A model generated the notes under the pieces. It was not told the origin of the DNA. It searched no databases and saw nothing but the letters and a program-made list of their open reading frames with translations. A DNA stretch of 35,987 nucleotides from a virus, in IMG/VR virus record IMGVR_UViG_3300024529_000004, positions 1 to 35,987 of that record; one strand, given 5' to 3'. This document shows positions 3,868 to 33,553 of the stretch, piece by piece. How positions within the stretch are numbered: the stretch's first letter is position 1; the number at the start of each line of letters is the position of its first letter. Position numbers and translations under genes: made by a program.

Positions 3868-3883
3868 TATTTATTAATAAATA
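3868..3883. promoter_or_regulatory. Palindromic late-promoter box TATTTATTAATAAATA
   Basis: This 16-bp perfect palindrome carries TATTTATT in both directions between the leftward CAP gene and the rightward gene at 3891. The rightward box leaves 15 nt to the ATG, in line with other sites. It could fire both ways or bind a dimeric factor. The same 16-bp palindrome recurs at 7560-7575. Confidence 0.5.
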
Positions 3884-7559: not shown

Positions 7560-7575
7560 TATTTATTAATAAATA
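7560..7575. promoter_or_regulatory. Palindromic late-promoter box TATTTATTAATAAATA
   Basis: This is the same 16-bp palindrome as at 3868-3883. The rightward TATTTATT (7560-7567) is 35 nt before the ATG at 7603. No leftward gene starts here, so only the rightward direction is clearly useful. Confidence 0.5.
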
Positions 7576-25675: not shown

Positions 25676-27664
25676 ATGGCAGAAAAATACACAATATTTC
25701 AAAGGTTAGAGGGGTTATTCGGTCCTGAGAAGAAAAAAGAGGACGCTAAATCCAGATATTCATTAGGGGATGATCAAATTTTAAAAACAAAATCCAAAGA
25801 AGAATATGAATTAGCAAAATTAGAAGCACAACAAGCTAAATACCTCGGTAATATGTGGCATAAGGTTGATAATGAGATATATCAGCAGTCAGTATTTTAC
25901 GAAACAACAAGAATTGCATCTTATTCAGATTTTGAGGGTATGGAGTTTTTCCCTGAAATCGCAGCGGCTTTAGATATTATGATGGAAGAGTCTACCACTC
26001 AAAATGGTGAAGGTAGAATACTTAACATTTTTTCTGAAAGTAAAAGGGTAAGGAGAATATTACAAGATTTATTCTTTAATAAGTTAGATGTTCACACCAA
26101 CTTACCTATGTGGACACGTAATACATGTAAATATGGTGATGATTTCTTATTTTTAGATGTTGATCCAAATGAAGGTGTTAGAGATGTAAAACAATTACCG
26201 AATATTGAAATTGAAAGGAGGGAAGGTGACTTCCTTGCTAAGACACATAATAGTGGTAATATTAGTGGTAATAGTACTGATAAAGATGATGGTAGAGTTA
26301 CATTCTATTGGAAAAATAAAGATACTGAGTTTAACGCTTGGCAAATTGCTCATTTTAGATTGTTAGGTGATGATAGAAGAATACCTTATGGTACTTCTAT
26401 GTTAGAGAAAGCAAGAAGAATTTGGAAGCAATTATTACTTTCGGAAGATGCAATGTTAATATATAGAGTAACGAGAGCACCAGAAAGAAGAATATTTAAA
26501 ATCTATGTGGGTGATATTGATGAATCCGATGTACCATCGTATGTTCAAAAAATTGCAAACAACTTTAAAAGAAGTCCAGTAATTGATCAGAACACCGGAC
26601 AGATTGACACTAAGTATAATCAAATGGCTCAGGATCAAGATTACTTTGTACCTGTTAGGGATCCAAGTTCTCCTAGTCCGATAGAGACACTTCCAGGTGC
26701 GACTAACCTATCTGAGATTGCAGATATTGAATTCTTACAAAAGAAATTGTTTACTGCTCTTAGAGTTCCTAAACCATTTTTAGGGTATGAAGAAACAAAT
26801 GGTGATGGTAAAAATTTAGCGTTACAAGATATTAGGTTTACTAGAACTGTTGGTCGTATCCAACAAGCAATGATTCAGGAGTTGAACAAGATTGCTATTA
26901 TTCATTTATATATTTTAGGTTTAGAAGATGAGTTAGAAAATTTCACATTATCACTTAATAACCCATCTACACAAGCTGATATGTTAAGAACTGAGCAACT
27001 ACAACAAAAAGTACAAGTATATAGAGACTCTGTTGCGGATGCAGGAAATGGTTTTGGTGCTATGTCTATGACAAGAGCTAAAAAAGATATTTTAGGTATG
27101 TCAGAAGAAGAAATTAGGTTAGATTTAGAACAACAAAGAATGGAGAAAGCAGCGGCAGCTGAAATGGAACAAACCGCAAATATAATTAAGAAAACAGGTA
27201 TATTCGATAGGGTGGATAGTTTATATGGAGAATTCGGTGTTAAACCAGGTGAAACATCAGAAGAATCACCCGCAGGTGGTGAAGAAGACGCAGGATTCGG
27301 TGGTGGTGGAAGCTTCGGTGGTGGATTCGGTGGTGGTGATGATTTAGGTGCTACTGATGATGCTTTAGGTGCTACTGATGATGCTTTAGGTGATACCACT
27401 GAGCCAGCAGTAGAACCAGCAGAAATACCTATGGAAAGTGTAGAAAAGAAAGGTGACTTAATTGTGGAGAATGAAGTTAAGAAAAGAGTTTTACAAGAAA
27501 AAACAAACAAGTATAAAAATATCTATACTAATAGGTTAATGGAGAGTCTTGATCGTAAAGGAGTAATTAGTGGTAGTATAGAAAATATAAGTAAAACTAA
27601 CGATTCACTTGCTGATGAATTATCTAGAATGTCTGATAAAGTAGATGAATTAACAAAAGATTAA
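25676..27664 (+). CDS. Portal vertex protein (T4 gp20-like)
   Basis: The 662-aa protein forms the ring through which DNA enters the head. Family segments are clear: FFPEIAAALDIMMEEST near residue 90, AWQIAHFRLLGDDRRIPYGT, EDAMLIYRVTRAPERRIFKI, DYFVPVRDPSSPSPIETLPG, ATNLSEIADIEFLQKKLFTA and LRVPKPFLGY. It is longer than T4 gp20 (524 aa) because of a C-terminal extension. This starts with a Gly-rich run (FGGGGSFGGGFGGGDD, ~540), a short tandem repeat LGATDDA x2 (DNA 27346-27387), and ends in a charged helix. The extension also holds an LxE-type end (ENEVKKRVLQE), so it could be trimmed by the protease. Confidence 0.93.
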   Translation: MAEKYTIFQRLEGLFGPEKKKEDAKSRYSLGDDQILKTKSKEEYELAKLEAQQAKYLGNMWHKVDNEIYQQSVFYETTRIASYSDFEGMEFFPEIAAALDIMMEESTTQNGEGRILNIFSESKRVRRILQDLFFNKLDVHTNLPMWTRNTCKYGDDFLFLDVDPNEGVRDVKQLPNIEIERREGDFLAKTHNSGNISGNSTDKDDGRVTFYWKNKDTEFNAWQIAHFRLLGDDRRIPYGTSMLEKARRIWKQLLLSEDAMLIYRVTRAPERRIFKIYVGDIDESDVPSYVQKIANNFKRSPVIDQNTGQIDTKYNQMAQDQDYFVPVRDPSSPSPIETLPGATNLSEIADIEFLQKKLFTALRVPKPFLGYEETNGDGKNLALQDIRFTRTVGRIQQAMIQELNKIAIIHLYILGLEDELENFTLSLNNPSTQADMLRTEQLQQKVQVYRDSVADAGNGFGAMSMTRAKKDILGMSEEEIRLDLEQQRMEKAAAAEMEQTANIIKKTGIFDRVDSLYGEFGVKPGETSEESPAGGEEDAGFGGGGSFGGGFGGGDDLGATDDALGATDDALGDTTEPAVEPAEIPMESVEKKGDLIVENEVKKRVLQEKTNKYKNIYTNRLMESLDRKGVISGSIENISKTNDSLADELSRMSDKVDELTKD

Positions 27665-29050: not shown

Positions 29051-29076
29051 AAACCCACTTAGTTGTGGGTTTTTTT
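29051..29076 (+). terminator. Rho-independent terminator
   Basis: 8-bp stem AAACCCAC / GTGGGTTT with loop TTAGTT and seven T (29070-29076), 8 nt after the preceding stop. Confidence 0.85.
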
Positions 29077-29101
29077 ATGTTCTAATTTGACTGAGGGGGT
29101 T

Positions 29102-29147
29102 ATAATGATTATATTAGTTTTATAATAACAAAAACCATAATCATTAT
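29102..29147 (+). promoter_or_regulatory. 11-bp inverted repeat just before a start codon
   Basis: ATAATGATTAT (29102-29112) and its exact reverse complement ATAATCATTAT (29137-29147) enclose 24 nt and end 2 nt before the ATG at 29150. In RNA the hairpin would cover the initiation region; in DNA it could be an operator. No TATTTAT box is present in between. Confidence 0.5.
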
Positions 29148-29149
29148 GA

Positions 29150-29581
29150 ATGAAAAGAGGAAAAGAAATTACTTTAAAGTCAAAGGACAATTATAAGGTA
29201 AAATTAGGGACAATAGATAATAAAAGTCCAAAGACAATATATCTAAATGTTTCAGCATGGGGGAAACCACTTACGCAAGAAGATAATTACGACAACATAA
29301 TTAGTAATCTTAGAAAAAAAATAAAACAGAAATTATATTCACAAATAGGGTTTAATAACTTTGAAAAAGAAAGATATATTGTAGACTTAGATATGAGGTC
29401 ATCAGGTATTAATCACACTAAAAGAAGTTTTATGTCTTGTGAAATCACATTGTTCCAAAAAGAAAGGGTATCGGTGAATGACACATCGATGATGGAGCTA
29501 TCAAATAATCTAACTAATAACATCATACAAGATTGTTTTGAGGAAAACAATCATTTCAGGTTTTATAAAACCAAAAAATAA
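29150..29581 (+). CDS. Hypothetical protein, 143 aa
   Basis: A basic soluble protein: strands ITLKSKDNYKVKLGTIDNKS and TIYLNVSAWGKPL, a helix with IISNLRKKIKQKLYSQIGF, then YIVDLDMRSSGINHTKRSFM. No capsid leader. It stands alone between a terminator and the hairpin-controlled protease gene. The ATG at 29150 is preferred over the out-of-frame ATG at 29146. No family recognised. Confidence 0.6.
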   Translation: MKRGKEITLKSKDNYKVKLGTIDNKSPKTIYLNVSAWGKPLTQEDNYDNIISNLRKKIKQKLYSQIGFNNFEKERYIVDLDMRSSGINHTKRSFMSCEITLFQKERVSVNDTSMMELSNNLTNNIIQDCFEENNHFRFYKTKK

Positions 29582-29590
29582 TATTTTTCA

Positions 29591-29630
29591 TCGTATTGGT
29601 ATATTTATTAAGAAACATATACCAATACGA
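29591..29630 (+). promoter_or_regulatory. 14-bp perfect inverted repeat around the protease promoter, ending on the start codon
   Basis: TCGTATTGGTATAT (29591-29604) pairs perfectly with ATATACCAATACGA (29617-29630), whose last A is the A of the protease ATG. The 12-nt loop TTATTAAGAAAC holds most of the late box TATTTATTAAGAAA (29602-29615). A read-through transcript would fold the start region into a strong hairpin; a transcript begun just behind the box would lack the left arm and stay open. T4 genes e, soc, 49 and I-TevI use this logic. Confidence 0.75.
29602..29609 (+). promoter_or_regulatory. Candidate late promoter box TATTTATTAAGAAA in the hairpin
   Basis: The 8-nt core TATTTATT overlaps the end of the left hairpin arm and its loop; 20 nt separate it from the ATG at 29630. 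Confidence 0.6.
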
Positions 29631-30319
29631 TGGAAATATTAAAAAACGGACAAACAGGCAAAAAAGGTATTTTAGTTGAATACGATGCTGGATATATATC
29701 ACCAAACAACAATAAACATTTTGTAAACGAAGTTAATAAAATTGCAAAGGGTGAACCTATCATAGAAGAACCATTATATGTTTATGCTGTAATGCAAAAA
29801 TATGATGTTGAAAACAGAAACGGGAGAATCTATCCCGAAGCTATCCTAAAAAGGGAAGCAGAAAATTATTTAAAACTTATTAAAGACAATAGAGCTCTAG
29901 GTGAAGCAGATCACCCAGAAAGTTCTATCGTTGCCGTTAGTAGAATATCTCACAACGTAGTTGATCTATGGTGGGAAGGTAATGTTCTAATGGGTAAATT
30001 AGAAATCATAATGTCACCAGGATTTATCAATCAAGGTATCATATCGTGTGAGGGTGACAGAATCGCAAATTATTTAAGAAAGGGAATTAAGATTGGAGTA
30101 TCCTCAAGGGGTGTCGGATCATTAGCAAAAGAAAATGGTAGAAACGTAGTTCAAGAGGATTTTGAAATAATCTGTTGGGATATTGTTACCTCACCATCAA
30201 CACCTGGTTCATGGATATATGATGAGAAACCATCAGTAGAGCAACAAATGAGTGAATCTACCGATAAGAAGGATAAGAATTTACTTATAAATTCTATTGA
30301 TAATTTCCTTTTAGAATAA
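29630..30319 (+). CDS. Prohead maturation protease (T4 gp21-like)
   Basis: The 229-aa serine protease (T4 gp21 is 212 aa) cuts scaffold, capsid and internal proteins in the prohead. The fold signature is clear: YVYAVMQKYDVENRNGRIYP, ALGEADHPESSIVAVSRISH with likely catalytic His95, VDLWWEGNVLMGKLEI, and GIKIGVSSRGVGSL with the likely catalytic Ser in S158/S159. The protein itself ends NSIDNFLLE, i.e. with LxE at the very C-terminus, in keeping with autoprocessing. T4 gp21 prefers (L/I)xE, the motif that ends the many leaders of this window. It is controlled by an unusual hairpin-promoter. Confidence 0.93.
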   Translation: MEILKNGQTGKKGILVEYDAGYISPNNNKHFVNEVNKIAKGEPIIEEPLYVYAVMQKYDVENRNGRIYPEAILKREAENYLKLIKDNRALGEADHPESSIVAVSRISHNVVDLWWEGNVLMGKLEIIMSPGFINQGIISCEGDRIANYLRKGIKIGVSSRGVGSLAKENGRNVVQEDFEIICWDIVTSPSTPGSWIYDEKPSVEQQMSESTDKKDKNLLINSIDNFLLE

Positions 30320-31771: not shown

Positions 31772-33553
31772 ATGAGTTTAATACATTCAGGTGAAGTCGG
31801 AAATATCGGACTAGAACACCTAAAACAAATCAGAACAAAAACTATGTCAAAATGGGATAGTTTAGGATTCTTAGAAGGACTTAAAGGTCACATCAAAGAA
31901 AACGTAGCACAGTTATATGAAAACCAAGCGTCTTCATTATTAACTGAATCATCTGACGCTGGTTCATCAGGATCTTTCGAGACTGTTGTATTTCCAATCG
32001 TTAGAAGAGTATTCTCTAAATTATTAGCTAATGATATCGTATCAGTACAAGCAATGAATATGCCAATTGGTAAATTATTCTACTTCGTACCAAAGGTATC
32101 AGAAACAGCGGTAAGTTTAGGTGGTAAGAATATTACACAAAATGGTTCATTACCAGCAGGTAATACTATGGAAGTAGCAACTTATGAAGACAAATCTCTT
32201 TATGATTTATATTATAACGATGGTTTATTTGATAAGTCAAAAGGAGCATCAACTATATTAACTTCAACAGGGGTAGAAGCTAACACAATTGCAGATACAG
32301 GTACCACAATGGTATCAGGTTTAACTTGTGCTTCTAATTACGCAGCTAATGCACAAAAAGTGTTATCTGCTGATGATTCAGTAAGAGCAATTAAATTAGC
32401 AATAAAAGGATTCACTGATTCTAGTGCAGGTAGATTAAATGATTCATTTGGTAATGAAATGGATACAGAATCTTTCTTAGCTTCTTTAAAAGTTATTACT
32501 AACGGAGAAATCGTTGATAACGATGGTAATGTAATCGCTGTAACAGGTGCTGAATTACCAATTAGATTAGTAGCTCAAAAATACGGAAAAGGTATTGTTG
32601 ATTACGGTAACATTTGTACTCCTGATGGTTGTCTATTAGTAGAGGTTGATTTAACTCACCCAGCGTGTGTTGATTGTTCTTCTGGTAGAATTGATGGTTA
32701 TACTGGTGCTGAATCAGGATTCACATCTACGTCTAGTACATCTTCAGGTAATACATTTACTGCATCTTGGTTACAATACGAAGATATGGAATATGCAACT
32801 GAAATGGGAGAAGTATCTTTCGAACTTGATGAGGTTGTAGTTTCTGTAACTGAAAGAAAGTTAAGAGCTACTTGGTCACCAGAATTAGCACAAGACGTTA
32901 GTGCATTCCATAACATCGATGCAGAAGCTGAATTAACAGCATTGCTTTCTGAGCAAGTTGCAGCTGAAATCGATAGAGAGATTTTAAGAGACCTTAGAAA
33001 AGGTGGAGCTTGGTCTTTAAGATGGGATTACAACGGATGGAAAAGAGCTAACTCAGGTGGAGGCTTTAACGCTTACACACAAAAAGAGTGGAATCAAACA
33101 TTGATTACGAGAGTAAATCAATTATCAGCTCAAATACATAAAGCTACACTTAAAGGTGGTGCTAATTTTATCGTTGTATCTTCTGAGGTATCAGCAATCT
33201 TCGATGATTTAGAGTACTTCCACGTAAGTAACGCTAATCCAGAGCAAGATCAATACAATATGGGTATTGAGAAAATTGGTTCATTAGGAGGAAGATACAC
33301 AGTATACAGAGATCCTTATGCACCAGCTAACTCAATCTTAGTAGGACATAAAGGTAAGTCTTTATTAGACACTGGTTATATCTACGCACCATACGTACCA
33401 TTACAATTAACACCAACGTTACAAAATCCATTTAACTTCGCACCAACGAAGGGGATTATGACACGTTATGCTAAGAAAATGGTAAATAATCGCTTCTACG
33501 GAAATATCCGAGTGGATGGGGTTCAAACGTTTGATACGGCAGAGTTGAGATAA
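31772..33553 (+). CDS. Major capsid protein (T4 gp23-like)
   Basis: The 593-aa shell protein (T4 gp23: 521 aa) has the diagnostic segment FPIVRRVFSKLLANDIVSVQ followed by AMNMPIGKLFYF. Conserved later parts are VSFELDEVVVSVTERKLRAT, WSPELAQDVSAFHNIDAEAE and the C-terminal GIMTRYAKKMVNNRFYGNIR. The N-terminal ~59 residues end in LLTE/SSDAG (L57-T58-E59), matching the gp23 cut after residue 65 in T4. About 90 residues with several Cys (near CTPDGCLL, HPACVDCSSG) form an extra insertion. It follows the scaffold by 24 nt and is ended by a strong terminator. Confidence 0.95.
   Translation: MSLIHSGEVGNIGLEHLKQIRTKTMSKWDSLGFLEGLKGHIKENVAQLYENQASSLLTESSDAGSSGSFETVVFPIVRRVFSKLLANDIVSVQAMNMPIGKLFYFVPKVSETAVSLGGKNITQNGSLPAGNTMEVATYEDKSLYDLYYNDGLFDKSKGASTILTSTGVEANTIADTGTTMVSGLTCASNYAANAQKVLSADDSVRAIKLAIKGFTDSSAGRLNDSFGNEMDTESFLASLKVITNGEIVDNDGNVIAVTGAELPIRLVAQKYGKGIVDYGNICTPDGCLLVEVDLTHPACVDCSSGRIDGYTGAESGFTSTSSTSSGNTFTASWLQYEDMEYATEMGEVSFELDEVVVSVTERKLRATWSPELAQDVSAFHNIDAEAELTALLSEQVAAEIDREILRDLRKGGAWSLRWDYNGWKRANSGGGFNAYTQKEWNQTLITRVNQLSAQIHKATLKGGANFIVVSSEVSAIFDDLEYFHVSNANPEQDQYNMGIEKIGSLGGRYTVYRDPYAPANSILVGHKGKSLLDTGYIYAPYVPLQLTPTLQNPFNFAPTKGIMTRYAKKMVNNRFYGNIRVDGVQTFDTAELR

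Follow-up and report, generated by a model that had tools for sequence, protein, structure and literature searches.

A hairpin carrying a candidate late-promoter box is predicted to hide the prohead protease start codon in a lineage of marine T4-like phages

The prohead protease gene of a lineage of marine T4-like phages is preceded by a hairpin whose 3′ arm holds the start codon and whose 5′ arm and loop carry a candidate late-promoter box, and this leader probably serves as a cis-acting device that both times and insulates the protease. The window, that is, the whole stretch of 35,987 nucleotides analysed here, is a 36-kb fragment from an uncultivated T4-like phage (virus record IMGVR_UViG_3300024529_000004). 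Early in infection, host RNA polymerase would start at the host-type promoter (about 29087–29117) of the gene directly 5′ and run into the protease gene; the resulting RNA would have both arms of the hairpin, locking the start codon in a helix of 16–20 bp, and the protease would go untranslated. Once the late phase is reached, the phage's late polymerase would start at the box within the hairpin, giving an RNA with the 3′ arm only, in which the start codon would be open and protease could be made. We infer early read-through into the protease gene, translational repression of the long RNA, use of the box late in infection and the exact start site there from the arrangement and conservation of the following features.

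29051–29076, plus strand: intrinsic terminator (AAACCCAC..GTGGGTTT and a T run) ahead of the upstream gene; a similar element in most relatives.
29087–29115, plus strand: host-type (early) promoter of the upstream gene, TTGACT-N17-TATATT (TATATTAG); conserved in relatives.
29150–29581, plus strand: upstream gene, 143 amino acids, no family match, presumed early; conserved directly 5′ of the protease.
29589–29604, plus strand: 5′ arm of the hairpin, CATCGTATTGGTATAT, extended to 29585 by U-A/U-G pairs.
29600–29609, plus strand: late box TATATTTATT, lineage consensus ATATTTAT[A/T], with a core invariant in relatives.
29605–29616, plus strand: loop of 12 nt, TTATTAAGAAAC, with the late start predicted near 29612 from the box geometry and the host −7 spacing (PMC6847099).
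29617–29632, plus strand: 3′ arm of the hairpin, ATATACCAATACGATG, closing with the entire start codon and extended to 29636 by added pairs.
29630–30319, plus strand: prohead core serine protease, gp21-like, Peptidase_S77, 229 amino acids (PF03420, E = 6e-25; PHROG 207, E = 3e-42).

The hairpin at the protease start

The open reading frame at 29630–30319 is assigned as a gp21-type prohead protease by its Pfam profile match (PF03420, 88.3 bits, above the curated cut-off of 27), bearing out the identity first given to it from the letters alone, and lies between the portal gene (25676–27664) and that of the major capsid protein (31772–33553). Ahead of it, that first-pass annotation had seen a perfect dyad of 14 bp ending on the A of the ATG. 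The dyad is where it was reported to be and is indeed perfect, but it is longer, with 16 bp (29589–29604/29617–29632), and it ends beyond the A, taking the full ATG (29630–29632) into the 3′ arm. As reported, the box spans both the left arm and the loop, straddling the end of the arm, and it is similarly placed in the relatives that carry the hairpin.

Folded as RNA, the stem lengthens to 20 bp (29585–29604/29617–29636) with a predicted stability of −24.2 kcal/mol (z = −7.7), compared with −6.1 ± 2.3 kcal/mol for shuffles; none of 200 matched it. The hairpin remained the dominant fold within a 221-nt context and ranked first in stability among 650 start regions from the window and three long relatives. 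A chance origin of the dyad was ruled out, as only about 0.0014 perfect 16-bp repeats (loop 3–30) are expected in the entire window; the longest arms in 20 first-order random sequences were 9–15. An Rfam search of the window gave no match at the gathering level.

Conservation and the selected molecule

Relatives were collected by a protein search that gave 80 related contigs, enlarged by two further searches. Nearly all near relatives share one leader plan, with a stem, a box ATATTTAT running from the last part of the 5′ arm into the loop, and a start codon in the 3′ arm; in nearly all of them, too, the protease start codon lies 44–50 nt past the preceding stop codon. The predicted helix is kept across about 80 related contigs despite sequence change. 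In an alignment of 27 distinct leaders, 89.1% of cells were paired, with 38 double-change cells and seven pairs changed on both sides, and the covariation score was 0.241 against 0.152 for shuffled alignments (0 of 500 as high) and at most 0.096 for slid registers. Because kinship among sequences inflates such pairing and covariation figures, we also ran a tree-aware null, in which each column's substitutions were randomly placed on the protease-gene tree (56 loci, 1,000 simulations). Observed pairing was 85.7%, compared with 78.3 ± 2.7% simulated, a value reached in none of the 1,000 simulations; five pairs had both compensatory changes on the same branch, against 1.06 simulated (4 of 1,000 reaching the observed number). 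Three relatives (L171, L176 and L192) have an altered protease N-terminus and a shifted register, and their helix still closes over the start.

One transition in a Watson–Crick pair yields either G-U or A-C. G-U is retained under selection on the sense RNA and A-C is expected under selection on an antisense RNA, whereas selection on DNA favours neither. Among variable non-coding pairs we counted 206 Watson–Crick, 32 G-U and 3 A-C, and this excess of G-U over A-C argues for the sense-strand RNA of the hairpin as the selected molecule, contrary to a DNA operator or cruciform.

The immuto-/cyanophage-type distant relatives (L195–L274) have no box and no hairpin before the protease gene, which directly follows the preceding open reading frame; the device is therefore specific to this lineage.

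The leader would also seem to be portable, as in one branch (L071, L072 and L076) it has evidently been captured by a homing endonuclease gene. There, a GIY-YIG/NUMOD3 gene (5250–6010 in L071; Pfam E = 1e-7 and 8e-7) sits exactly at the protease start and has for its own beginning the protease's hairpin and box together with the ATG and first codons (MEIL); the protease, displaced, now starts at MNKF, overlapping the end of the GIY-YIG gene. Elsewhere, in the early region of L106 (13371–13606) and in L356–L363, a 62-amino-acid gene has a box within a hairpin of −20.6 kcal/mol and its ATG in the 3′ arm; this hairpin is kept in eight contigs with an altered 5′ arm.

Candidate late box, early promoter and insulation

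Across 650 genes of four genomes, ATATTTAT was the strongest directional 8-mer 5′ of genes (173 sense, 41 antisense), its positions peaking at −25..−21, that is, 21–25 nt ahead of the ATG. In each of the four genomes it lies ahead of the orthologues of gp20 (portal) and gp21 (protease), and in three of them also ahead of that of gp17 (terminase). The T4 late box TATAAATA was in its rarer orientation when read in the sense direction in the same gene set (37 versus 102), and its frequency in the window was no higher than chance. The host-type −7 element TATATTTG was directional (38 versus 7), and the box differs from it mainly at the end. Two relatives encode a candidate gp55-like late sigma, found by weak matches to PHROG 234 (E = 2e-5 and 0.007) and to Sigma70 region 2 (E about 2e-4 to 3e-4, slightly under the cut-off); BLAST with T4 gp55 found no match, these proteins being recognized by profile only, and no sigma gene was found in the 36-kb fragment itself. 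We infer that a gp55-like sigma serves the box late in infection. A palindromic form of the box, TATTTATTAATAAATA, occurs at 3868–3883 and 7560–7575 of the window, the first between divergent genes, and these are possible two-way late promoters.

In Flavobacterium, the −7 element lies at −12 to −5 and transcription starts 4–5 nt later (PMC6847099). Applied to the box, this geometry predicts a late start near 29612, within the loop, and it places the start in the loop in 36 of 36 relatives. T4 geometry would put it at about 29616, likewise within the loop. When the long RNA and the late RNA were folded, the mean unpaired probability of the start codon was 0.10 in the former and 0.34 in the latter, where it is thus just partly open in silico; for the window's own AUG the values were about 0.001 and 0.41. 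The mean for the −10..+10 region rose from 0.18 to 0.53. In L025, L039, L064 and L075, the start codon was predicted to be no more open in the late RNA, but its −10..+10 region was more open. Shine–Dalgarno sequences are scarce (AGGAGG occurs once in 650 leaders), with none evident at the protease.

The first-pass annotation had taken read-through from upstream to be the source of the hidden message, and the upstream gene fits this part. In most relatives it is preceded, in order, by an intrinsic terminator, TTGAC-N17-TA...T and the ATG. This promoter-like element was found in all 47 distinct leaders, with a spacing of 17 in every case, and in 53 of 54 of a second set gathered using the upstream protein; genome-wide, the 17-nt spacing occurred 22 times, against 0–4 at other spacings. 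It should be read early by the host polymerase. By its promoter type the upstream gene is presumed to be early, and it is the probable source of early read-through RNA into the protease gene: in the window, the hairpin alone stands between this promoter and the protease, in a gap without a terminator. The 143-amino-acid product had no match in Pfam, PHROG, PDB sequences or isolated phages and was found in uncultivated phages only; its structural model, a confident one (pLDDT 89.6), gave only weak PDB fold matches, among them a YbjN-like one, and one match to an uncharacterized viral structure. A second dyad, ATAATGATTAT/ATAATCATTAT, lies at 29102–29147 of the window, where it covers the −10 box of that gene's early promoter and ends shortly before its ATG; the nearest clade has it as well, and L011 and L021 have part of it.

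A further promoter pattern, TTTG-N20-TA..TTTG, was counted genome-wide 31 times, against 0–8 at other spacings. It is the pattern of Bacteroidota promoters (PMC6847099, PMC9723704), and by promoter type the host may belong to the Bacteroidota. The only genome match, by contrast, places a 63,985-nt contig of the relative L026/L275 in an assembly from a single Prochlorococcus cell (QCKH01000009.1).

In three relatives (L011, L021 and L023), an intrinsic terminator comes after the upstream gene and the box comes next, where pairing between box and start is weak (−5 to −6 kcal/mol). Since this weak pairing remains, the group is an imperfect hairpin-free control. L014 and L282 have the terminator and the box followed by an inserted 136-amino-acid gene between upstream gene and protease, and in L345 a terminator ends the upstream gene and the protease is not adjacent. 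With a terminator replacing the strong hairpin in relatives, the two look like alternative insulators of the protease, the terminator acting on transcription and the hairpin on translation. Both this exchange and the conserved promoter and terminator before the adjacent gene are consistent with read-through as the source of the long RNA.

More tentatively, the locus may be read as an early gene, complete with its own terminator and host promoter, set within a late head operon, with the protease shielded by whichever insulator evolved. The late box TATATTTAT would then resemble the Bacteroidota −7 element (TAnnTTTG) as the T4 box resembles TATAAT, the late sigma's target following the host promoter, and the leader would be a portable unit open to capture by a homing endonuclease gene.

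Other explanations and known T4 leaders

Among other explanations, translational coupling is improbable. It would have a ribosome at the upstream stop codon (29579–29581) melt the base of the stem so that the protease starts, the box being incidental; the stem base does lie a few nucleotides past that stop in hairpin carriers, and the gap is held at a near-constant length. The hairpin and box together already fix that length, however, and the box, a general directional motif ahead of other genes, is invariant while the arms drift. It is less probable still that the hairpin acts in RNA processing or stability (as a site for a double-strand RNase, for instance), dividing early from late messages and hiding the start as a by-product. 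A long double-stranded stem and selection on the sense RNA would suit such an element, but the arms have no conserved sequence for an enzyme to recognize and the helix closes over the start even in the three relatives with a shifted register and a different N-terminus.

We give very little weight to either of two further readings. With a promoter box at its centre, the perfect dyad could be a DNA-level palindrome, as a repressor operator or a cruciform; the arm sequences, however, vary widely among relatives with pairing kept, and the ratio of G-U to A-C is not that expected of a DNA operator. An intrinsic terminator or attenuator closing the upstream gene's transcript would fit the intergenic position and the true terminators found at that place in other relatives. 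True terminators in the lineage are, however, G+C rich with a T run immediately after the stem, and the window has no such run past the hairpin's 3′ arm.

In T4 genes e, soc and 49, the translation start is folded away in the long early RNA, and late RNA escapes the structure because its promoters are located in the 5′ strand (PMC3014915); the leaders of T4 I-TevI and segB and of Aeh1 mobE, which are carried on early transcripts, enclose a late promoter in a hairpin that hides the start (PMC2988022). The folding procedure used here also recovers the T4 e, soc, 49, I-TevI and segB structures, and the comparison with e, soc, 49 and I-TevI made in the first-pass annotation is a sound one. The protease leader is like them, by prediction and covariation, in having its start region paired in the long transcript, and its box is so placed that a late RNA started there would lack the 5′ arm. 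It differs in its box, ATATTTAT[A/T] as opposed to TATAAATA, in having no evident Shine–Dalgarno sequence to hide, where e, soc and 49 hide theirs too, and in its target, a prohead protease instead of lysozyme or Soc. The I-TevI, segB and mobE leaders serve homing endonuclease genes, and the protease leader was itself taken over by such a gene in L071. As the box is not TATAAATA, and one part of the arrangement is thus a sequence variant, we claim that the leader works like T4-type control and not that it is identical to it; sequence supports this reading wherever it can bear on it, through the covarying hairpin over the start codon, the selection on sense RNA, the placement of the box, the promoter and terminator ahead of the upstream gene, and the terminators where the strong hairpin is missing. 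No leader of this sort precedes T4 gene 21, which overlaps gene 68. The consulted portions of the reviews on T4-type hairpin control (PMC3014915, PMC2988022) do not name gene 21. Timing by a start-hiding hairpin is known from a few T4 genes and, as far as we found, has no earlier description for a capsid-processing protease.

From comparison alone, the covariation argues strongly that these uncultivated viruses have a regulatory RNA, ATATTTAT points to a previously unrecognized late-promoter box for the lineage, and the exchange of hairpin and terminator makes protection from read-through directly testable. We suggest that the control guards against harm by protease made early. If the leader works as proposed, the logic of T4 e and I-TevI would reach an enzyme essential for capsid maturation, and also phages seemingly without Shine–Dalgarno signals, in which hiding has to act on the start codon itself.
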